Shown piece by piece: positions 1-24,530 of a stretch of 33,708 nt of DNA. The notes under the pieces were generated by a model. That model made no database searches. It worked only from the letters and a program-made list of their open reading frames with translations, and was not told where the DNA came from. A program made the position numbers and the translations under genes. The stretch comes from Methylotenera oryzisoli (GTDB taxonomy: Bacteria; Pseudomonadota; Gammaproteobacteria; Burkholderiales; Methylophilaceae), in the NCBI GenBank assembly GCA_945872425.1, contig CAMBZE010000013.1:1-33708 (forward strand), in the 5' to 3' direction. Within the stretch, counting starts at the first letter, position 1, and every line of letters begins with the position of its first letter.

Positions 1-2477
1 GTGCTTGTCTTGGTGCTCGTTTTTTTAGCGGGGGCCGTCTTTGCCGCTTTTGCGCTTAATAACTCTAATGCTTCTTCCAATGTTAACGTTTCAGGCTCCA
101 CACTTTTTGGGAGCGTCGCCCGAATTTTTCCATGCTGCACGTAAGGTCCGTAACGCCCGGAAAAAACTTCAATCTGACCATCCTCAGTAGGGTGGCCGCC
201 AAGAGAGCATAATGGCGCAGGGCCAGCATTTGCCTGCGCCAGCAGGTTGGTTGCACCCTCAAGGTCTATGGTAAATACATTCAAGCTTTTGGGAATGGAT
301 TTGAATTTTCCATCGTGATTGACGTAAGGACCAAAGCGGCCGATATTTGCCACGATTTTTTTATTCGTTTCCGGATGCAAACCTAAGTCGCGTGGTAGCG
401 ACAATAGCCTGTTGGCAGTTTCTAAATTCACATCCGCGAGTGGAACATCTTTGGGAATGCTGACTCGTTTTGGTTTCTTTTTATCGCCTTCTACAGCCAA
501 TCCCAATTGCAGATATGGGCCATAAGGGCCATTCATCAAATAAATTTCTTTACCGGATTCTTTATCCGTTCCAATGGTTACCGGATCAGTCCCGGCGCTG
601 GCAGCTCCATCCATGCTGCGTTTGTAATCACATTTAGGGGTGTCGTTGTAGCCGGTACAACCAATAAAGCTGCCATAGCGACTTAATTGTTTTTGCAGTG
701 GCTTGCCGCATTTTGGACAAGCTTCGTCTATTAACTCATTACCTGGGCGATCAACATTGGCTTTGATATGAATTTGATGATTAAAATCATGCCAGAACTC
801 ATCCATGAGTGGAATCCACTCGCGCTCGCCTTCGGCTACACTATCCAGCGCATTTTCCAGATTGGCGGTAAAGTCATAATCTACATATTTGGTGAAATGT
901 TCGGTTAAAAACTTGTTGACCACGCGACCAACATCCGTCGGCGTAAAGCGCTTTTTATCCAGCAGCACATATTCGCGGTCTTGTAGCGTACTAATAATAC
1001 TGGCGTAAGTTGAAGGTCGGCCAATGCCATATTCTTCTAATACTTTAACCAGGCTTGCTTCGGAATAACGTGGGGGTGGTTCGGTGAAATGCTGGTCGCC
1101 ATAGATTTTTTCCACGGTTAAAACCTCACCTGTTTCCAGATGCGGCAACTTACTTTCTCCCTCTTCTTCCTCGTCGTCTGAGCTTTCCATATAAACGGCG
1201 ATAAAGCCCGGGAACACCAAGGTTTGACCGGTAGCGCGGAACAGGTTGGCATCACTGCCCACGCTTAAATCAACACTGACCGCGTCAAATTTAGCAGGCG
1301 CCATTTGGCAGGCGAGAGCGCGCTTCCAAATCATTTCATAAAGCTTGAATTGTTCGTCAGTTAAAAATTGACGTACTTTTGCCGGCGTGCGCGTAATGTC
1401 CGTTGGACGTATCGCCTCATGCGCTTCTTGTGCGCTTTTAGACTTGGTTTTGTACATGACAGGCGATTTTGGCAGATAATCGGCATCAAAATTCTTTTTC
1501 ACATAATCACGAATTTGCATGACCGCTTCGGTAGCTAAACTGAATGAGTCGGTACGCATATAGGTGATCAAGCCAACAGTACCACCGCCCACATCCATAC
1601 CCTCGTAAAGTTGCTGCGCTACACGCATCGCACGCGCTGTGGTAAAGCCCAGCTTGCGTACGGCTTCCTGCTGCAAGGTTGAGGTGGTGAAGGGCGCGGC
1701 AGGACTGCGACTACGTTGTTTTTTCTCAACGCGCGACACCGTGGTTTTGCCCGCGCTGGCAAGTAATAATTTGCCGACAATATCGGCTTGCTGGTCATGG
1801 TTGATGACGGTGAATTGCTCGACTTTTTGATTATTCAACTGCACCAGTCTGGCACTAAAGCCATGGCTATGTTTTAAGGCATCTAAATGAATGGTCCAAT
1901 ATTCTTGTGATTTAAAGGCTTCAATTTCAAGTTCGCGCTCAACAATCAAGCGCAGAGCCGGGCTTTGTACACGACCGGCGGAAAGTCCGCGCCGGATTTT
2001 CTTCCAGAGTAATGGGGATAAATTAAAACCAACCAAATAATCCAAGGCACGCCGTGCCTGCTGTGCGTTGACCATGGGCATGGATATGTCACGTGGTTCA
2101 GCGATGGCATGCTCAACAGCACCTTTGGTAATTTCATGAAACACTACGCGTTTCATCAATTTATTTTTGAGCAAGTTCTTGGATTTCAGTATTTCAGCAA
2201 TATGCCATGAAATTGCCTCGCCTTCACGGTCCGGGTCGGTTGCGAGGTAAATGCTATCCGCACTTTTCGCCGCTTTGGCAATGGCATCCACGTGCTTGCT
2301 GTTGCGCTCGATAATGTCGTATTTCATGGCGAACATATTTTCGGTATCTACCGCGCCATTTTTAGGAATTAAATCGCGTACATGCCCATAGGACGCGAGC
2401 ACCTCAAAATCACTGCCGAGGTATTTTTTCAGCGTTTTCGCTTTCGATGGAGATTCAACAATGAGTAGTTTGGACAT
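1..2477 (-). CDS. topA: DNA topoisomerase I (type IA), 3' end beyond the window
   Basis: Type IA topoisomerase that relaxes negative supercoils through a 5'-phosphotyrosyl intermediate. The frame is open from the ATG at 2477 to position 1, about 825 codons, so only a short tail is missing (E. coli TopA has 865). Visible in order: an N-terminal Toprim domain opening MSKLLIVESPSKAK with DPDREGE further on; a GLITYMRTDS active-site motif whose Tyr is residue 306 (codon 1560-1562); one Cys4 zinc ribbon (ACPKCGKP then CTGYNDTPKC, coded around 620-720); and three C-terminal repeats with the G-x-Y/F-GPY signature (NGPYGPY, GRFGPY, GRYGPY). The last visible residues are Lys/Ala/Thr-rich. The protein therefore has one zinc ribbon followed by repeats, unlike the several zinc ribbons of E. 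coli TopA. No strong Shine-Dalgarno site precedes the ATG. The assignment is firm. Confidence 0.97.
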   Translation of the reverse strand, partial: MSKLLIVESPSKAKTLKKYLGSDFEVLASYGHVRDLIPKNGAVDTENMFAMKYDIIERNSKHVDAIAKAAKSADSIYLATDPDREGEAISWHIAEILKSKNLLKNKLMKRVVFHEITKGAVEHAIAEPRDISMPMVNAQQARRALDYLVGFNLSPLLWKKIRRGLSAGRVQSPALRLIVERELEIEAFKSQEYWTIHLDALKHSHGFSARLVQLNNQKVEQFTVINHDQQADIVGKLLLASAGKTTVSRVEKKQRSRSPAAPFTTSTLQQEAVRKLGFTTARAMRVAQQLYEGMDVGGGTVGLITYMRTDSFSLATEAVMQIRDYVKKNFDADYLPKSPVMYKTKSKSAQEAHEAIRPTDITRTPAKVRQFLTDEQFKLYEMIWKRALACQMAPAKFDAVSVDLSVGSDANLFRATGQTLVFPGFIAVYMESSDDEEEEGESKLPHLETGEVLTVEKIYGDQHFTEPPPRYSEASLVKVLEEYGIGRPSTYASIISTLQDREYVLLDKKRFTPTDVGRVVNKFLTEHFTKYVDYDFTANLENALDSVAEGEREWIPLMDEFWHDFNHQIHIKANVDRPGNELIDEACPKCGKPLQKQLSRYGSFIGCTGYNDTPKCDYKRSMDGAASAGTDPVTIGTDKESGKEIYLMNGPYGPYLQLGLAVEGDKKKPKRVSIPKDVPLADVNLETANRLLSLPRDLGLHPETNKKIVANIGRFGPYVNHDGKFKSIPKSLNVFTIDLEGATNLLAQANAGPAPLCSLGGHPTEDGQIEVFSGRYGPYVQHGKIRATLPKSVEPETLTLEEALELLSAKAAKTAPAKKTSTKTS

Positions 2478-2589
2478 GAATGCCTAAATAATAAGGTGAG
2501 AACTTAAGGTGCAGTGTGGATGATAGCAAGGTCAATAGCTAAAATACAATAAGTTATGTTGTTTGCGTGCAAATTTTTAGCGGTCGCAG

Positions 2590-3495
2590 CTATTTATTGC
2601 GAACAAATTCAATTCTTGTGCCATCGCTCTCGGCTAAACTAAGTGCTGCACCCTCATTCGCAATATCACCAAACAGGGGGTCTTCGTCATTCGCCTTGGC
2701 TTGGCTCATGTTTTTGAAGTCGTACAAATTCACATCGGCCAAGTGCGATGGCTCTACATTAGTAATCGCGCGGAAGATATTATTGATGCGCCCAGGCTGC
2801 TCGCGCTCCCAGCTTTGCAGCATGTCTTTTACTTTTTGACGTTGTAAGTTTTCCTGGCTACCACACAGGTCACACGGAATGATAGGAAATTCCATTTGGC
2901 GCGCATAGCTGGCAATGTCTTTTTCACTGCAATAGGCGAGCGGGCGGATCACGATATTTTGCTTATCGTTGGTGGCAAGTTTTGGCGGCATGGCTTTCAT
3001 TTTTGCGCCAAAGAACAAATTCAAAAATAAAGTTTCTACAATGTCATCACGATGATGACCCAATGCAATTTTATTCGCCCCCAGTTCTTTTGCTGTGGTG
3101 TAAATCACCCCACGACGTAGACGCGAGCAAAGCGAGCAAGTGGTTTTACCTTCTGGAATTTTTTCTTTAACGATTGAATAGGTGTCGGCTTCAACAATGC
3201 GATAATCGATGCCTAGTTTTTCAAAATAAGCAGGCAGAATATCTGCAGGAAAACCAGGCTGCTTTTGATCCAGGTTCATGGCAATGAGCTTGAAGTTAAT
3301 CGGCGCACGCTCCTGCAATGCCAGCAATATCATCAGCAAAGCGTGACTATCTTTACCGCCACTCATGCACACCAACACAGTGTCGCCATCTTCAATCATG
3401 TTGTAATCACCGATGGCCTTGCCGGTGGCGCTAATTAAGCTATTACGCAGTTTGATGAAGTTGTTGGAATGGTGATCTGGTAAATGTTTTATCAT
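2590..3495 (-). CDS. ttcA: tRNA 2-thiocytidine(32) synthetase TtcA
   Basis: ATP- and [4Fe-4S]-dependent enzyme that thiolates cytidine 32 in the anticodon loop of some tRNAs. The 301-residue product has the PP-loop SGGKDS at residues 45-50. It has C120-x2-C123 ([10 protein letters not shown]) and a later PCDLCGS with C208/C211. By comparison with E. coli TtcA, C120, C123 and C211 would be the cluster ligands (inference). LGHHRDD near 145-151 is also typical of the family. Length matches the family, and the ATG at 3495 gives a normal N-terminus. It sits in the same direction as the pteridine reductase upstream and topA downstream, with 74 and 112 bp gaps. TtcA and the mechanistically related TilS share the PP-loop, but the two CxxC pairs decide for TtcA. 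Confidence 0.96.
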
Positions 3496-3569
3496 AATGT
3501 TTGAAGCTAGAATTAGAGCTGAAACTTGAATTTTATTGAGGTGAACTCTAGGTTCGTTAAATTAGAGTG

Positions 3570-4319
3570 CTAGAGGTTTAATGACCGCCCACCATCCACT
3601 GCCAGCACATGGCCTGTGACAAACGGTGCATCATAAATTAAAAATTTGACTGCTTTGGCAACGTCTTCAGGTTCACCAACACGTTTGAGTAGCGTTTGGT
3701 TAATGACGCGCTGGCGATAGACTTCATCAAACTGTGGATTATTTTCCGGCCATTGTACCGGGCCGGGGGCGACTGCGTTTACACGTACTTCAGGGCTCAA
3801 CTCCTGTGCCAAAGATTTAGTTAACGTGACTAAGCCCGCTTTGGCTACGCTGTACACAATGTAGCCTTTTTTTGGGCGTTCAATATGCATGTCGGTAATG
3901 TTAATAACGCAGCCATGATTTTTGCGTAGCTCAGATGCGGCAGCTTGCACCAAAAACACGGGGGCTTTAAGGTTGCTGCCTATTAAATCATGCCAGTTAT
4001 CTTCATTGATTTGGCCGAGATCAGTTGGAAAGTAAGTGGAAGCATTGTTGATGAGCGCGTCCAATTTGCCAAAATGTTTCACGGTTTCGCTCACCAAACT
4101 TGGTAACACGGCGACATTCAGCAGGTCACCCTGGATAATAGCGACGGAATTAGCGCGCAGTAAATTAAGTTCAGCCTGTAAAGCGCGCGCTTCGGTCGCA
4201 CTGGTTTTGTAGTGAATCATCAGTTGCGCACCGTGTGCGTGCAACTCACGGCAGATGGCTGCGCCTACGCGCTTTGCGCCACCAGTGATTAAAATAACTT
4301 TATCTTTTGCCATGTTCAC
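3570..4319 (-). CDS. SDR-family pteridine reductase (FolM/PTR1-like)
   Basis: Short-chain dehydrogenase/reductase of about 250 residues, probably an NADPH-dependent reductase of dihydropterins (dihydromonapterin or dihydrofolate). Seen: the Rossmann motif TGGAKRVG at 12-19, NNAS at 91-94, and the catalytic YSVAK with Tyr156 and Lys160. Where ordinary SDRs carry the catalytic Ser, this protein reads ITDMHIERP with Asp143. That Asp is characteristic of PTR1 and E. coli FolM, which is why I favour pteridine reductase over a generic SDR. There are two possible starts: GTG at 4319, with a GAG six bases upstream, or ATG at 4313 with no visible ribosome site. The GTG is used here, and the two differ by two residues. 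It is divergent from the MidA-like methyltransferase with only 38 bp between starts. Confidence 0.85.
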   Translation of the reverse strand: MNMAKDKVILITGGAKRVGAAICRELHAHGAQLMIHYKTSATEARALQAELNLLRANSVAIIQGDLLNVAVLPSLVSETVKHFGKLDALINNASTYFPTDLGQINEDNWHDLIGSNLKAPVFLVQAAASELRKNHGCVINITDMHIERPKKGYIVYSVAKAGLVTLTKSLAQELSPEVRVNAVAPGPVQWPENNPQFDEVYRQRVINQTLLKRVGEPEDVAKAVKFLIYDAPFVTGHVLAVDGGRSLNL

Positions 4320-4321
4320 AG

Positions 4322-4352
4322 TTTACTCATTTTTCGTGCAAAATATTATAAT
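4322..4352 (+). promoter_or_regulatory. Putative sigma70 promoter of the MidA-like gene
   Basis: A perfect TATAAT lies at 4347-4352, and TTTACT at 4322-4327 is a 4/6 match to the -35 box with a long 19-bp spacer. The TATAAT ends only five bases before the ATG at 4358, so a transcript started at the usual distance would begin on or next to the start codon. Prediction only. Confidence 0.4.
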
Positions 4353-4357
4353 GGCTT

Positions 4358-5524
4358 ATGCCAACATTACCTATTTCAGCATTGCCTATTCCTAACCTCG
4401 AGGCGCAGGCGCACAGCCAACAGTTACGCGCGCTAATTCAAACAAAAATCAGCCAAAATGATGGTTGGCTATCATTTGCAGATTTTATGCACCTGGCGCT
4501 ATATACACCGGGCTTAGGTTATTACAGTGGCGGCGCTAAAAAATTCGGGGCAGGCGGCGATTTTGTCACTGCACCTGAAATTTCCCCATTATTTGCACAA
4601 ACTTTGGCTAAGCAGGCGCTGCAAGTGCTGGCAGCAACACAAGGAAATATTTTAGAGCTGGGTGCAGGCACCGGTAGGTTGGCTGCAGATTTATTGCTAA
4701 CACTGCAAGAATCAAATCAACTGCCTGAACGCTATTTTATATTGGAAGTTAGTGCTCACTTGCGTCAAGTGCAGTTGGAAACCCTGCAAAAGAAATTGCC
4801 TGAAAATCTTATGCAACGTGTGGCGTGGCTAGATGTTTTACCTACTCACTTTGTTGGTTTGATACTCGGCAATGAAGTGCTAGACGCAATTCCGGTGCAT
4901 TTAATTTATAACGGTCAGCTTGGCTTATGTGAGCGTGGCATTGCATTCAGTGACGCGTTTGTCTGGCAAGATAAACAACTTACCGCAGGCAATTTATTCA
5001 ATTTTTTGAGAGATTACTCACTACCACATGATTATCTCACTGAAGTTTGCCCTGCCGCAGTTGGTCTGATTCATAGCTTGGCACAGGCGTTAGAACGCGG
5101 GGTAATTCTTATGATTGATTACGGTTTTTCGGCGCGGGAGTATTATCACCCGCAGCGTCATTTGGGTACGCTGATGTGCCATTACCAACATTATGCGCAT
5201 ACTGACCCGTTAATGAATGTTGGCCTCCAGGACATTACGGCGCATGTCGATTTTACGAGTATCGCTCATGCGGGTATGGATCAGGGGTTGGAGTTAAGCG
5301 GTTTTTGCAGCCAGTCACAGTTTTTGATAAATTGCGGTATTTTGGAGGTAATGAGCCAGGTATCACCCAATGATATGGCGTGTTATGCGCCACTTGCTGC
5401 TGCTGCGCAAAAGTTGTTGTCGCCTGCGGAGATGGGGGATTTGTTTAAAGTCGTTGCTTTTAGTAAAAGCATTGATGAACCCTTAATTGGGTTTCTATCA
5501 GGTGATAAATCTCATACACTGTAA
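4358..5524 (+). CDS. SAM-dependent methyltransferase, MidA/NDUFAF7 (DUF185) family
   Basis: The 388-residue product belongs to the family of mitochondrial NDUFAF7/MidA, which methylates an arginine of complex I in eukaryotes; the bacterial substrate is not established. Seen: YSGGAKKFGAGGDFVTAPE around 56-74 (family hallmark), the SAM-binding ILELGAGTGR at 98-107, LGNEVLDAIPVH in the middle, and a C-terminal ending FKVVAFSK. Length is typical. There is no Shine-Dalgarno site before the ATG at 4358, and the next Met lies inside the conserved domain, so the start is accepted. It sits 21-30 bp upstream of trmB, both on the plus strand. The family call is firm; the substrate is unknown. Confidence 0.9.
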   Translation: MPTLPISALPIPNLEAQAHSQQLRALIQTKISQNDGWLSFADFMHLALYTPGLGYYSGGAKKFGAGGDFVTAPEISPLFAQTLAKQALQVLAATQGNILELGAGTGRLAADLLLTLQESNQLPERYFILEVSAHLRQVQLETLQKKLPENLMQRVAWLDVLPTHFVGLILGNEVLDAIPVHLIYNGQLGLCERGIAFSDAFVWQDKQLTAGNLFNFLRDYSLPHDYLTEVCPAAVGLIHSLAQALERGVILMIDYGFSAREYYHPQRHLGTLMCHYQHYAHTDPLMNVGLQDITAHVDFTSIAHAGMDQGLELSGFCSQSQFLINCGILEVMSQVSPNDMACYAPLAAAAQKLLSPAEMGDLFKVVAFSKSIDEPLIGFLSGDKSHTL

Positions 5525-19071: not shown

Positions 19072-19722
19072 TTGACTAATAAAATGATTACGATAGCACT
19101 TTCAAAAGGCCGCATCTTCGAAGAAACCGCACCATTGTTAGCTGCGGCAGGAATTCATGCGCTTGAGGACCCCGAATCATCACGCAAGCTCATCATCGGG
19201 ACCAATCGTGAAGACGTACGTTTGATTATCGTCCGCGCGACAGATGTGCCAACTTATGTGCAATATGGCGCAGCTGATTTAGGCATTGCCGGTAAGGATG
19301 TGCTGGATGAACATGGCGGCGAAGGTCTGTATCAGCCAATCGATTTGCAGATTGCTAAATGCAAAATGATGGTGGCGGTGCGTGAGGATTTTGATTACTT
19401 TGGCTCAATCCGTAGTGGCGCGCGTTTGAAAGTAGTCACTAAGTACGTCAAAACTGCACGCGAGCATTTTGCAGCAAAAGGTATGCATGTTGATTTAATT
19501 AAACTTTACGGCTCAATGGAGCTGGGTCCGCTGGTTGGTTTGGCTGATGTCATTGTTGACTTGGTGAGTACTGGTGGAACTTTACGTGCCAACAACCTTA
19601 AAGCAGTTGAAGAGGTGGGCGATATTAGCTCTAGACTCATTGTCAACCAAGCGTCACTTAAACTCAATAGAGCGAAATTGCAGCCGATTATGGATGCATT
19701 CTCACGCGTGAAAAAATTATAG
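19072..19722 (+). CDS. hisG: ATP phosphoribosyltransferase, short-form catalytic subunit HisG
   Basis: First step of histidine synthesis: ATP plus PRPP to phosphoribosyl-ATP. 216 residues, the short (HisG-S) type lacking the C-terminal ACT-like regulatory domain of the roughly 300-residue long form. Such enzymes work as a complex with HisZ, which is not encoded in this window. Motifs: [26 protein letters not shown], and the PRPP loop [14 protein letters not shown]. Starts: TTG at 19072 or ATG at 19084 ([10 protein letters not shown]); neither has a clear ribosome site, and the ATG is equally plausible. It begins nine bases after murA. Confidence 0.96.
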
Positions 19723-19732
19723 GTTTAATCGT

Positions 19733-21034
19733 ATGAAAATTAGACGTTTTTCTACTGTAGATAGCGATTTTGACGCTAAGCTAAAGCAATTGCTAGCATT
19801 TGAAACGGCACAGGATGACAGTATTGATGCTGTGGTTGCAAATATTCTAAAAGATGTAAAAACACGCGGTGATGTTGCCGTACTTGAATACACCAATCGA
19901 TTTGATAAAACTAACGCTAATAATCTAAGCGAGCTTGAAGTTAGCAAAGCAGAACTCGTTGCGGCATTAAATGGTCTGCCGGTTGACCAGCGCGAGGCGT
20001 TACAAACTGCTGCAGACCGTGTGCGTGGTTATCATGAAAAGCAATTGATGAGCTCATGGAGTTATACCGAGGCAAATGGAACATTGCTAGGACAGCAAGT
20101 AACATCACTTGACCGCGTGGGTTTGTATGTGCCTGGCGGCAAAGCGGCTTATCCTTCTTCTGTTTTGATGAATGCAATTCCTGCCAAAGTTGCCGGAGTG
20201 CAGGAGCTCATCATGGTGGTGCCAACACCTAACGGTGAAAAGAATCAGTTGGTATTGGCTGCCGCTGCAGTGTGTAAAGTTGACCGTGTATTTTGCATTG
20301 GCGGTGCGCAAGCGGTGGGTGCTATGGCTTACGGCACGCAAACTGTGCCGCAGGTTGATAAAATTGTTGGTCCAGGCAATGCCTATGTGGCCGCCGCCAA
20401 GCGAAGAGTGTTCGGTGTGGTGGGTATTGATATGGTGGCAGGGCCATCCGAAATCCTGGTAATTTGCGATGGAAAAACTAATCCGGATTGGATTGCCATG
20501 GATTTATTCTCTCAAGCCGAGCATGACGAATTGGCGCAATCCATATTGTTGAGTCCTGACGCAGACTTCTTGGATAAAGTCAGTGCAAGTATTCAAAGAT
20601 TAGTTGAAGACATGCCACGTAAAGACATCATTGCCACTTCGCTGACCGACAGAGGCGCGCTGATACATGTGCGCGATTTAGACGAGGCTGCCGAGATTAG
20701 CAATTATATTGCGCCGGAACATTTGGAGTTATCTATTGAAGATCCGTTGGTCTTCAGCAAAAAAATCAAACACGCGGGTGCTATTTTTATGGGCCGTGAT
20801 ACTTGCGAAGCGCTAGGCGACTACTGTGCGGGACCAAATCATGTATTGCCAACTTCACGCACGGCAAGGTTTTCGTCGCCGCTGGGAGTGTATGATTTCC
20901 AGAAACGCTCCAGCTTGATTATGGTGTCTTCAGAGGGCGCGCAAGTGTTAGGTAAAGTGGCTGCGACTTTGGCTTATGGTGAGGGGTTGCAAGCGCACGC
21001 ACGTTCTGCTGAGTATCGTTTAAGAAATGAGTAA
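19733..21034 (+). CDS. hisD: Histidinol dehydrogenase HisD
   Basis: Zinc enzyme for the last two steps of the pathway, histidinol to histidine with two NAD+. 433 residues, standard length. Conserved segments include [62 protein letters not shown], the zinc and catalytic region [11 protein letters not shown], and IAPEHLEL. It begins ten bases after hisG and overlaps hisC by eight bases. Confidence 0.98.
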
Positions 21035-22091
21035 ATTCTGGAGTGGCGTCGTACATAAGCTTACCCCTTATGTGCCGGGTGAGCAGCCAAAGCTAAACAA
21101 TCTGGTGAAGTTGAACACCAACGAAAACCCTTATGGGCCAAGTCCGCAAGTGATAGCGGCGCTTAAGCTGGAGGCTGCTGATACGCTACGTTTGTATCCG
21201 GACCCCAATTCAGACGCCCTAAAAGCGGCTATTGCGCATGAGTATCATCTAAATACTAACCAAGTCTTTGTTGGCAATGGCTCAGATGAAGTATTGGCGC
21301 ATGTGTTTCAAGCTCTATTAAAGCATGATAAGCCTTTGTTATTTCCGGATATTACTTACAGTTTTTACCCGGTATATTGTGGTTTGTATGGCATTAAATA
21401 CCAAACCATCCCGCTTGCAGATGACTTTAGTATCAATATAGCTGATTACAATCAGCCGAATGGCGGCATCATATTTCCTAATCCAAATGCGCCGACAGGC
21501 ATGCCGCTGGCACTAGCGAAGATTGAGACGTTGCTGCAAAACAATACACAATCTGTCGTGGTCATTGATGAAGCGTATGTAGATTTTGGTACTGAATCTG
21601 CGGTAGGTTTAATTAACCAATACCCAAATTTGTTAGTGACGCATACCTTATCTAAAGCACGCTCATTGGCAGGTTTGCGCGTTGGTTATGCCTTGGGCTC
21701 GCCCGACCTGATTGAAGCGCTGATACGCGTGAAAGATAGCTTTAACTCTTACCCGATTGACCGTTTTGCGTCTGCCGGCGCGGTTGCGGCGATGCAGGAT
21801 GTAGCCTATTTTGAAAAAACCTGTCGTCAAGTCATTGCTACGCGTAATGTCTTGATTAAGGACTTAGCGAATTTAGGTTTTGAAGTATTGCCCTCTGGCG
21901 CAAACTTTATTTTTGCCAAACACAAAATGCACGATGGGGCCGAGTTAACGGCAAAATTGCGTGAACACAATATCATCGTACGTCATTTTAAGTCACCGAA
22001 CAGAATTTCTCCTTATTTACGGATTACTATCGGCACTGATTCACAATCAAAAACACTCATCAGCGCTTTGTCAGAAATTTTAGGCGCATAA
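21027..22091 (+). CDS. hisC: Histidinol-phosphate aminotransferase HisC
   Basis: PLP enzyme converting imidazole acetol phosphate and glutamate to histidinol phosphate. 354 residues with [12 protein letters not shown] near the N-terminus, [15 protein letters not shown], the [10 protein letters not shown] Asp region, and the PLP Schiff-base lysine in [16 protein letters not shown] (Lys210). SPYLRITIG near the end is also typical. It overlaps hisD by eight bases and ends the first his block; a 255-bp non-coding interval follows before hps. Confidence 0.96.
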
Positions 22092-22346
22092 TACTTTTTC
22101 TCGTACAAGGGGCCAAAATATAGCAAAGGTCGCTAATATTCTGGTATACAGCCCAATAATGCATAAACTTTAACAAATAAAGTATAAAAAACGTGCAAAA
22201 CAAGCGTGAAAAGTTTGAATTTTCACTCAAAGTGCGGTTATCATAGCGAAATGTGCGTTTTGTGCACAAATAATAATTATTTTCAATTTCGTATTTTTAA
22301 CCTAAGTAAATCATGATTTGATTTATTATTAGTTGGAGGATGTATC
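22092..22346 (+). promoter_or_regulatory. 255-bp non-coding leader/control region of hps
   Basis: AT-rich, no credible coding sequence. It holds three perfect inverted repeats: GTGAAAA-N7-TTTTCAC (22206-22226), the 12-bp palindrome TTTGTGCACAAA (22259-22270) and the 12-bp palindrome AAATCATGATTT (22308-22319). An imperfect hairpin, AATATAGC against GCTAATATT, lies at 22113-22144 just after hisC. A strong ribosome site GGAGG is at 22335-22339. Confidence 0.6.
22215..22244 (+). promoter_or_regulatory. Putative sigma70 promoter for hps
   Basis: TTGAAT (22215-22220) and TATCAT (22239-22244) with an 18-bp spacer. The -35 box lies inside the GTGAAAA-N7-TTTTCAC inverted repeat, so a repressor or activator bound there would directly affect promoter use. 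Predicted start near 22251, giving a leader of roughly 95 nt. Prediction only. Confidence 0.4.
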
Positions 22347-23024
22347 GTGGCACAAACCCAAATGGCATTAGATTCACTAGATTTTGACGCAACCGTTGCT
22401 TTGGCAGCTAAAGTTGCTCCGCACGTAGATATTTTAGAAATTGGTACCCCTTGCATTAAGCATAACGGGATTAAATTACTTCAAACGCTACGCGCTAAAT
22501 TCCCAAATAATAAAATTTTAGTTGACTTGAAAACAATGGATGCAGGTTTCTACGAAGCTGAACCATTCTACAAAGCAGGTGCAGATATTTGTACGGTTTT
22601 GGGTACTGCTGATATTGGTACAATCAAAGGTGTGATTGATGTTGCTAACAAATACGGCAAAAAAGCACAAGTTGACTTGATCAATGTTGCGGACAAAAAA
22701 GCACGCACACAAGAAGTTGCTAAATTGGGCGCGCATATCATTGGTGTTCACACTGGTTTAGATCAACAAGCGGCTGGTCAAACACCATTTGCAGATTTGG
22801 CTTTAGTAGCTAGTTTGAATTTAGGCCTTGAAATTTCAGTTGCTGGCGGCGTTAAAGCTGCTACAGCTGCACAAGTGCGTGATGCGGGCGCAACAATCAT
22901 TGTTGCTGGTGCTGCAATTTACGGTGCAGCTGATCCTGCTGCATCTGCCGCTGAAATCACTGCAATCGCTCATGGCGGTGCATCAGGTGGTTTGTTCGGC
23001 TGGGTTAAAAAATTATTTAGTTAA
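22347..23024 (+). CDS. hxlA: 3-hexulose-6-phosphate synthase (HPS), ribulose monophosphate pathway
   Basis: Aldolase that fixes formaldehyde onto ribulose 5-phosphate, giving 3-hexulose 6-phosphate, the key assimilation step in RuMP methylotrophs. 225 residues of the OMP-decarboxylase superfamily: VDILEIGTPC, the signature VDLKTMDAG (Asp60, Lys62, Asp65; D-x-K-x-x-D), GADICTVLG, GVHTGLDQQA, and the phosphate-binding SVAGGV and TIIVAGAAIYG. The last 17 or so residues (from HGGASGG) extend past the usual core of about 210 residues. KGPDC or OMP decarboxylase are alternatives, but GTPCIKHNG and GLDQQA fit HPS best. The start is GTG at 22347 with GGAGG seven bases upstream. By eye, codons are dominated by AT-ending and GGT/GCT types, consistent with high expression. 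It stands alone between a long leader and a strong terminator, and the isomerase (phi/hxlB) is not adjacent. Confidence 0.93.
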   Translation: MAQTQMALDSLDFDATVALAAKVAPHVDILEIGTPCIKHNGIKLLQTLRAKFPNNKILVDLKTMDAGFYEAEPFYKAGADICTVLGTADIGTIKGVIDVANKYGKKAQVDLINVADKKARTQEVAKLGAHIIGVHTGLDQQAAGQTPFADLALVASLNLGLEISVAGGVKAATAAQVRDAGATIIVAGAAIYGAADPAASAAEITAIAHGGASGGLFGWVKKLFS

Positions 23025-23042
23025 TTTTTGAAGTGTTAAATC

Positions 23043-23074
23043 AAAAACCCCAGCTTTCAAACTGGGGTTTTTTT
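23043..23074 (+). terminator. Strong intrinsic terminator after hps
   Basis: Stem AAAAACCCCAG (23043-23053) with CTGGGGTTTTT (23062-23072), eight-base loop, T-run through 23074. It lies 18 bases after the hps stop. The A-rich 5' side also makes it a plausible bidirectional terminator. Confidence 0.92.
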
Positions 23075-23127
23075 ATTTTGGATTTTAATTTCATCATGTA
23101 ACACTGTGTCACACCCTTTTAATGGGT

Positions 23128-23158
23128 TAAAATGCAGGTTGATAATTTAAAGTATAAC
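23128..23158 (+). promoter_or_regulatory. Candidate -10 boxes for the hisBHAFIE block
   Basis: TAAAAT at 23128-23133 and TATAAC at 23153-23158 both lie between the hps terminator and the hisB ATG (23163). Neither has a good -35 at standard spacing. A promoter is expected somewhere here because the terminator at 23043-23074 should stop most transcription from upstream. Confidence 0.25.
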
Positions 23159-23162
23159 TCTT

Positions 23163-23750
23163 ATGCGTAGTGCAAAAATTACCAGGAATACGCTGGAAAC
23201 TCAAATTACCGCGAGCATCAATTTGGATGGCACGGGAGTTTCTCAATTTAATACAGGCTTGGGATTTTTGGATCACATGCTTGATCAAATCGCTCGTCAC
23301 GGCATGATGGATATAGAAGTGAATGCCAAAGGTGATTTGCACATTGACGCACATCATACGGTGGAAGATATCGGTATTACGTTTGGTCAGGCTTTTGCAC
23401 AAGCGGTGGGCGATAAAAAAGGCATACGCCGTTATGGGCAGGCTTACGTGCCGCTGGACGAAGCTTTATCGCGCGTAGTATTAGATGTTTCAGGACGGCC
23501 AGGGTTGGAGTTTGGCTGCACATTTGTACGTGGCGCGATTGGCGGCTTTGATGTTGATCTTGTGCATGAGTTCTTTCAAGGTTTTGTCAATCACGCCAAC
23601 GTCACCTTGCATATTGATAATTTAAAAGGTCATAACGCACATCACCAAGCCGAAACAATTTTTAAGGCTTTTGGTCGCGCGTTGCGCATGGCGGTTGAGT
23701 TGGATGCGCGTATGGCGGGGATTACGCCATCAACAAAGGGTAGCTTATAA
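23163..23750 (+). CDS. hisB: Imidazoleglycerol-phosphate dehydratase HisB
   Basis: Manganese enzyme converting imidazole glycerol phosphate to imidazole acetol phosphate. 195 residues, the monofunctional type without the histidinol-phosphatase domain of E. coli HisB. The two metal-binding His repeats are clear: [13 protein letters not shown] with [11 protein letters not shown], and VHEFFQGF with [17 protein letters not shown]. The ATG at 23163 has no strong ribosome site. It begins the second his block after the hps unit; hisH follows 62 bp later. Confidence 0.97.
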
Positions 23751-23812
23751 GGGCTTGGTTTTGTTGTGGATGAATTCCATGTGAAAGATACTGGGCAGCA
23801 CTTAAGAATAGT

Positions 23813-24484
23813 ATGAGCAAAATTGATATTGCGGTAGTTGATTATGGCATGGGCAATTTGCGCTCAGTGTCTAAAGCATTGGAACATGTTGCCCCTGGTA
23901 AAAACGTTGCGGTGACAAGTAACCCTGATGAGGTGGCAAGCGCGGAGCGCGTAGTGTTTCCTGGTCAGGGGGCTATGCCTGATTGTATTCGTGAACTGGA
24001 TGCTAGAGGGTTACGTGCTGCCGTCATGGATGCAGCCAAACATAAACCTTTTTTGGGTATTTGTATTGGTCTGCAGATGTTATTTGAGCATTCGGAAGAA
24101 GGTAATGCTGCCGGACTAGGGTTGTTTAAAGGTAATGTAAAACGCTTTGCAGCCGTTGATATGTTTGATAACCAGGGTGGTGACAAGTTAAAGGTGCCGC
24201 ATATGGGCTGGAATCAGGTATATCAAGTCTGTGCTACTGGATCCCAACCTCATGTGTTGTGGCAGGGCATCGAAGATGGCGCCAGATTCTATTACGTACA
24301 TAGCTATTATGTGCAGCCTGAGAATGAAAGTATTATTTCAGGTTATAGCAACTATCCTAAGCGCTTTACTTGTGCGATTGCGAAAGATAACCTATTCGCT
24401 GTGCAGTTTCACCCGGAAAAAAGCGCCAATGCAGGTTTGCAATTATTGAGTAATTTCGTAAACTGGTCGCCTAAATCGCCATAA
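23813..24484 (+). CDS. hisH: Imidazole glycerol phosphate synthase, glutaminase subunit HisH
   Basis: Class I glutamine amidotransferase supplying ammonia to HisF. 223 residues with the triad visible: Cys84 in FLGICIGLQML, and His200 and Glu202 in VQFHPEKS. Also VDYGMGNLRSV at the N-terminus and PHMGWNQV. Length is slightly above the usual 200 or so, with an insert around 112-126 (DMFDNQGGDKLK). Acts as a heterodimer with the product of hisF two genes downstream. Confidence 0.97.
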   Translation: MSKIDIAVVDYGMGNLRSVSKALEHVAPGKNVAVTSNPDEVASAERVVFPGQGAMPDCIRELDARGLRAAVMDAAKHKPFLGICIGLQMLFEHSEEGNAAGLGLFKGNVKRFAAVDMFDNQGGDKLKVPHMGWNQVYQVCATGSQPHVLWQGIEDGARFYYVHSYYVQPENESIISGYSNYPKRFTCAIAKDNLFAVQFHPEKSANAGLQLLSNFVNWSPKSP

Positions 24485-24530
24485 TCTTTTTATTTTCTAA
24501 TTTTTTGTTTATAAAACTTAAATTTTCACT

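Follow-up and report, generated by a model that had tools for sequence, protein, structure and literature searches.

The window analyzed here, a stretch of 33,708 nucleotides from Methylotenera oryzisoli taken as a whole, carries a gene for 3-hexulose-6-phosphate synthase (HPS) between hisC and hisB, and it raises the question of why an enzyme of formaldehyde fixation is encoded among genes for histidine synthesis and what distinguishes it from other HPS. A sequence-only reading of the window had described the his genes as tightly packed and running in one direction, with hps lying between hisC and hisB, and the coordinates confirm this description:

19072-19722, forward strand: hisG, tightly packed with hisD and hisC
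19733-21034, forward strand: hisD, tightly packed with hisG and hisC
21027-22091, forward strand: hisC, upstream neighbor of hps, an open reading frame of 354 amino acids
22215-22244, forward strand: promoter-like site of hps, TTGAAT-18-TATCAT, a sigma-70-like match at 9 of 12 positions with conserved TTGA-- and TAT[CG]AT
22250-22346, forward strand: conserved ∼100-nt putative 5' untranslated leader of hps, counted from an inferred transcription start and highly similar in 17 aligned loci
22335-22339, forward strand: candidate ribosome-binding site GGAGG, 7 nt before the GTG start, recognized by its sequence
22347-23024, forward strand: hps, the his-located isoform of HPS, GTG start, 225 amino acids, assigned by its TIGR03128 score
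22986-23021, forward strand: C-terminal amphipathic tail GGLFGWVKKLFS, residues 214 to 225, a proposed membrane-docking helix that the tal/phi copy lacks
23043-23072, forward strand: intrinsic terminator-like hairpin after hps, an 11-pair stem followed by TTATTTT
23163-23750, forward strand: hisB, downstream neighbor of hps, an open reading frame of 195 amino acids

The hps gene is separated from hisC by 255 bp (positions 22092 to 22346) and from hisB by 138 bp.

Identity of the gene and its paralogue

The encoded protein scores 244 bits against the TIGR03128 (HxlA) profile, above the curated cut-off of 200, and covers profile positions 2 to 203 of 205, consistent with a full-length barrel. 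Two models for KGPDC gave 117.6 and 102.1 bits against cut-offs of 250 and 294, and the pyrF models, which represent OMPDC, gave at most 42.9 bits (TIGR01740, cut-off 92.3). With a score above the HPS cut-off and scores below those for KGPDC and pyrF, this gene is an HPS and neither a KGPDC nor an OMPDC, two alternatives that the sequence-only reading had raised against its own assignment. The nearest solved chain by sequence is 3ajx, itself an HPS, and the DMKTMD of that chain aligns with a DxKxxD motif in the window protein (D60-L-K62-T-M-D65), which we take to be catalytic. An AlphaFold model of the window HPS has a mean pLDDT of 88.7.

Contig C8 of the same genome carries another hps, flanked by tal and phi, and the genome also has a pyrF gene; a second hps and phi had both been proposed as things to look for, and both were found there. 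The two HPS cores are 90% identical as proteins within this genome. This much is already in print: passages of an earlier study describe HPS and its duplication in Methylophilaceae, with two hps copies at conserved places, one in the his cluster and one beside tal and phi in an H4MPT cluster with HPI and transaldolase, ∼90% identical within a genome (PMC4109929). These are the same two loci that we find in the genome of the window. What sets the his-located HPS apart from its tal/phi paralogue is, on comparison of the two sequences, a C-terminal tail; the his-located protein ends in GGASGGLFGWVKKLFS, and in the tal/phi copy nothing follows the barrel. This tail is the main feature of the his-located gene, and it was absent from the sequence-only reading.

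Distribution, forms, and evolution of the C-terminal tail

Among the matches listed, 217 loci from the family yielded 173 distinct hps genes (named and unnamed records of a single genome being counted as one only if they carried the identical gene), and although likeness to the tailed protein guided the first choice of loci and so favors tailed genes, the tail follows the locus: all 115 his-located genes carry it, 52 in an amphipathic and 63 in a transmembrane (TM)-like form, against 0 of 50 tal/phi-located copies. The other 8 genes comprise one between tal and hisB (tailed), four with neither a his nor a tal neighbor (tailed), and three fragments, two of them tailed. Sixty of the family stretches were hand-picked afterwards from unread places among the matches listed, a list limited by score, and these added 38 tailed his copies and 12 untailed tal copies, with no exceptions; second matches in some genomes (e.g., G092 of the small-genome genus g15) lay outside the stretches read. 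Wherever the sequence ahead of a his-located hps was read, a hisC homologue precedes the gene.

Several loci depart from the two-locus pattern in their details. The tailed gene between tal and hisB (L018/L102) belongs to a metagenome bin and could reflect either recombination between the two loci or an assembly chimera. Four loci (L056, L058, L059, and L060) have two tandem untailed hps between tal and phi, with tal outside the stretch in L060, and one hps of each pair is only 62 to 66% identical to that of the window. In one tal-hps-phi locus (L003), phi adjoins a gene for a HisA/HisF-related protein (positions 2862 to 3578, reverse strand; TIGR00734, under its cut-off).

We considered whether HPS in general carries such a tail and rejected this, as 60 loci outside the family (among the matches listed, 30 in another order of the class and 30 in another of its families) contain 58 untailed HPS and 2 fusions of HPS to PHI. 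None of these 60 loci has hisB or hisC next to hps, and 11 further loci outside Methylophilaceae, HPS-PHI fusions apart, also lack such a tail.

The tail takes one of two forms, a 12-residue amphipathic peptide or a TM-like helix followed by a stretch rich in Ala, Pro, and Glu. The four common amphipathic tails have hydrophobic moments of 0.61 to 0.68, against a mean of 0.31 for the C-termini of tal copies, a modest signal in that 2 to 3% of same-letter shuffles match it and the peptide is only 11 or 12 residues long. AlphaFold models residues 216 to 224 of the window HPS as a helix, with pLDDT under 50. The TM-like class was defined by a Kyte-Doolittle mean over 1.6 rather than by a dedicated TM predictor, and no longer tail falls outside it; in 34 such genes the best 19-residue mean is 1.79 to 2.58, compared with at most 1.77 in their cores. 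Mostly a lysine or two precede the segment, and 29 to 110 residues follow it that are Ala-rich and mostly contain Pro together with Glu or Asp. In the model of a TM form, that of Methylophilaceae bacterium 11, residues 221 to 237 form a separate helix, with block means of 73 and 68. On a quick, midpoint-rooted tree of hisB from 72 loci the distribution of tail types requires 2 changes, and the amphipathic tail is probably the older form, because the outer lineages of this tree carry it.

Substitution patterns in 42 amphipathic his copies (33 distinct DNA versions) show the amphipathic tail to be under purifying selection, as estimated from a pN/pS of 0.143 over its 11 codons against 0.125 in the core, with a pS of 0.75. 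Four tail positions, occupied by G, G, K, and L, are invariant in all 42 genes. The cores tell a different history from the tails. To explain which cores are tailed, the core tree requires 11 changes, and holding the 81 tailed cores together as one inherited clade is rejected (AU p 4.7e-7), on a tree that was quick, carries SH-aLRT support only, includes some rows of uneven base composition, and is one in which two long outgroup branches meet. Where both copies of a genome could be paired, the his core lies closest to the untailed paralogue of the same genome in 4 of 20 cases and to another his copy in the remaining 16. From the trees and the identity between copies, it appears that catalytic cores have recombined between the hps paralogues while the tails stayed in place, which is expected if the end of the protein defines the role of each copy.

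The mixing of cores also shows in L049 (genome G021), where two hps lie in tandem between hisC and hisB (reverse-strand positions 607 to 1506 and 1727 to 2401). They are identical over their first ∼620 bases and end in one TM tail and one amphipathic tail; the differing DNA upstream of the two copies argues against an assembly copy.

Two alternative anchors with different sequences would be expected to have the same effect, and for this reason we propose that Methylophilaceae have two HPS isoforms, of which the his-located one is docked to the membrane. We hold this to be probable, if well short of certain, with the docking, its orientation, and the trapping of formaldehyde being what we infer from the sequences. 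A different role for the tail would be to dock a partner protein, whether a membrane carrier, a C1 enzyme, or a partner in self-assembly, so that HPS would sit in a complex and not on lipid. The tail is short and linear and keeps G, G, K, and L throughout, which a peptide motif of this kind could explain as well as an amphipathic helix. We nevertheless regard partner docking as unlikely, since the tail alternates with an unlike hydrophobic segment of TM length and an acidic tail, an exchange that would preserve attachment to a membrane but no peptide motif.

Expression signals and the histidine cluster

Membrane docking, our preferred reading, concerns the protein; the gene also has features of its own. 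The ∼130 nt leading up to the start codon closely resemble one another in 17 hand-chosen loci (that of the window and 16 amphipathic-tailed relatives), and the DNA between this block and hisC has diverged. All 17 leaders keep TTGA--, TAT[CG]AT, and GGAGGATGTATCGTG, and the GGAGG at its distance of 7 nt is likewise invariant in 17 of 17, in agreement with the 255-bp leader and strong ribosome site described in the sequence-only reading. Scans of this region alone were weak, finding 7 promoter-like sites over the two strands where shuffles gave 3.8 ± 1.9 and 1 terminator-like site where they gave 1.2 ± 1.2, and it is conservation across the 17 leaders that supports the promoter-like site. When a leader profile was searched against 157 loci, it matched at E<1e-5 only before his-located copies, including copies of the same genus with the other tail type; in the same 157 loci it did not match before tal/phi copies and did not carry over to distant genera. 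The promoter-like site and leader (positions 22215 to 22346) also contain repeats such as GTGCG..GTGCAC. We looked for a known RNA element in the leader, and Rfam gave no match at gathering score in positions 21000 to 24500; the sub-threshold matches lay downstream of the gene body.

The terminator had been called excellent. An 11-pair hairpin with a T run is indeed present, but the scan for such sites does not rise above shuffles, and the stem is narrowly kept: its CCCCAG is found behind hps in 15 of 16 same-genus amphipathic loci and in 0 of 5 same-genus loci with a TM tail, one of which has a different hairpin. Some hairpin follows 43 of 75 his-located hps genes, and by these counts the terminator-like hairpin is less widely kept than the leader. 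The conserved leader together with the hairpin that follows the gene supports the view that the his-located hps has expression signals of its own, namely, a promoter-like site, a ribosome site, and a terminator-like hairpin.

Such signals, unmatched before the tal/phi copies, might instead belong to a second hps that is kept for additional or differently controlled HPS, with the tail incidental, and the 90% identity of the two cores fits that explanation. We think gene dosage or regulation a poor candidate, less probable still than partner docking, in that it leaves purifying selection on the tail unexplained, along with the absence of the tail from all of the tal/phi copies despite the mixing of cores.

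The placement of hps among his genes is, in the genomes and loci read, confined to one family. The HPS cut-off is passed by 15 of 399 genomes of the window's order, all 15 of them Methylophilaceae, and of 15 hisB loci examined in the order's other families none has hps in the stretch and 9 show a hisC-like gene directly before hisB. The search for hisB covered 27 genomes, 2 of them without a match. In the small-genome genera g13 and g15, hisC adjoins hisB without hps in 9 of 9 genomes with hisB loci read, across gaps of about 56 to 150 nt. One further locus, L158 (genome G024), has hisC followed by hisB without hps, and a tailed hps fragment lies on another contig of the same genome. Conversely, three tailed genes (L068 to L070) have no his neighbor in the stretch read, and in L138 (positions 1092 to 5466) a tailed hps lies beside one or more formate dehydrogenase-like genes followed, as judged by eye, by a REP-associated transposase-like gene; the tail stays with hps at all of these places.

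The presence of hps in the his cluster is therefore not constant, and because intact his clusters occur without it and tailed hps is found elsewhere, the his cluster is, from these gene neighborhoods, an inherited seat of the tailed gene and not a needed partner. The sequence-only reading had offered two explanations, simple inheritance of the location within Methylophilaceae or a coupling of C1 assimilation to PRPP and histidine synthesis, and our survey of the family agrees with the first, as do the conserved locations reported in passages of PMC4109929. The second would have hps balance the use of ribulose 5-phosphate against that of PRPP, and it draws on the fact that 115 of the 173 hps genes read, nearly all of the tailed copies, sit in the his cluster. 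We consider it very improbable, given that his clusters lacking hps are intact, that the tailed gene also occurs elsewhere, and that hps has its own conserved leader. Least likely of all is that the tail governs turnover of the isoform as a signal for its stability or degradation, for although hydrophobic C-termini can serve as protease signals, a TM form with 29 to 110 residues beyond its hydrophobic segment looks unlike one.

A proposed membrane-docked isoform and known systems

The membrane-docking reading may be set out as follows. The copy between tal and phi would be the soluble enzyme of the RuMP cycle, and the his-located copy would consist of the same barrel, a short linker, and then the basic amphipathic helix GGLFGWVKKLFS, which would sit in the inner membrane's cytoplasmic face in a manner similar to the C-terminal targeting helix of MinD. 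Known HPS structures are dimers, so that two tail helices would act together. In part of the family a TM-like segment with an Ala/Pro/Glu-rich tail would replace the helix. Methanol dehydrogenase is periplasmic and formaldehyde is made there, and it is on this pathway knowledge that the proposed purpose rests: an HPS held at the inner membrane would capture incoming formaldehyde by fixing it on ribulose 5-phosphate, ahead of any reaction with protein or DNA. All 12 Methylophilaceae genomes searched have a match above the cut-off to the PQQ-dependent alcohol (methanol) dehydrogenase family TIGR03075, and the member in the genome of the window has, by eye, a signal-peptide-like start.

The tailed isoform does not appear to be essential to methylotrophy, as g13 and g15 encode a TIGR03075 dehydrogenase in 4 of 4 genomes searched yet lack an hps between hisC and hisB in all 9 genomes whose loci were read, and other users of HPS do without a tail, none being present in the 60 and 11 loci from outside the family. 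More tentatively, and with slightly more doubt than confidence, we suggest that the two HPS are divided by place into a soluble assimilatory enzyme and a formaldehyde gate at the inner membrane, whose interchanged anchors have been protected from the gene conversion that homogenizes the cores.

How formaldehyde made in the periplasm reaches assimilation in the cytoplasm without harm to the cell is, in our judgment, a standing question in methylotrophy, and a membrane-held HPS, if real, would give a simple and testable answer to it, place the entry to the RuMP cycle at the membrane, and offer an anchored enzyme for use in synthetic methylotrophs. A particulate HPS was reportedly described from Methylococcus capsulatus in a study of 1974. 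We found no tail or membrane anchor on HPS in titles and openings of abstracts, a search that left most subscription journals outside its coverage, nor any HPS tail or membrane association in passages of PMC4109929, PMC517821, PMC8879981, and PMC6158289.

Compared with known systems, the his-located HPS shares the two-copy arrangement described in PMC4109929, whose main text, on a word search, uses no words on transmembrane, C-terminal, membrane, or amphipathic features in connection with HPS; the tail reported here would give a distinct role to the second copy, which appears there as a closely related duplicate. It retains the entire catalytic barrel of solved HPS and of TIGR03128, with DLKTMD in place of the DMKTMD of 3ajx, and differs in adding a conserved membrane-type tail that is absent from its paralogue and from the HPS genes read outside Methylophilaceae. 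HPS-PHI fusions (L183 and L184) resemble it as HPS with a C-terminal addition, but what is added in them is the enzyme of the following pathway step. The letters of the tail presumably resemble the targeting helix of MinD, a likeness drawn from the literature, since no protein of this genome matched MinD over the cut-off. In published accounts, MinD binds the membrane through a C-terminal helix and dimerization raises its affinity for the membrane (PMC6158289). Both would be dimer-forming enzymes with a short C-terminal amphipathic helix, which in HPS is predicted. Unlike MinD, the his-located HPS is a metabolic enzyme with no ATP switch, and its relatives exchange the helix for a TM-like one.
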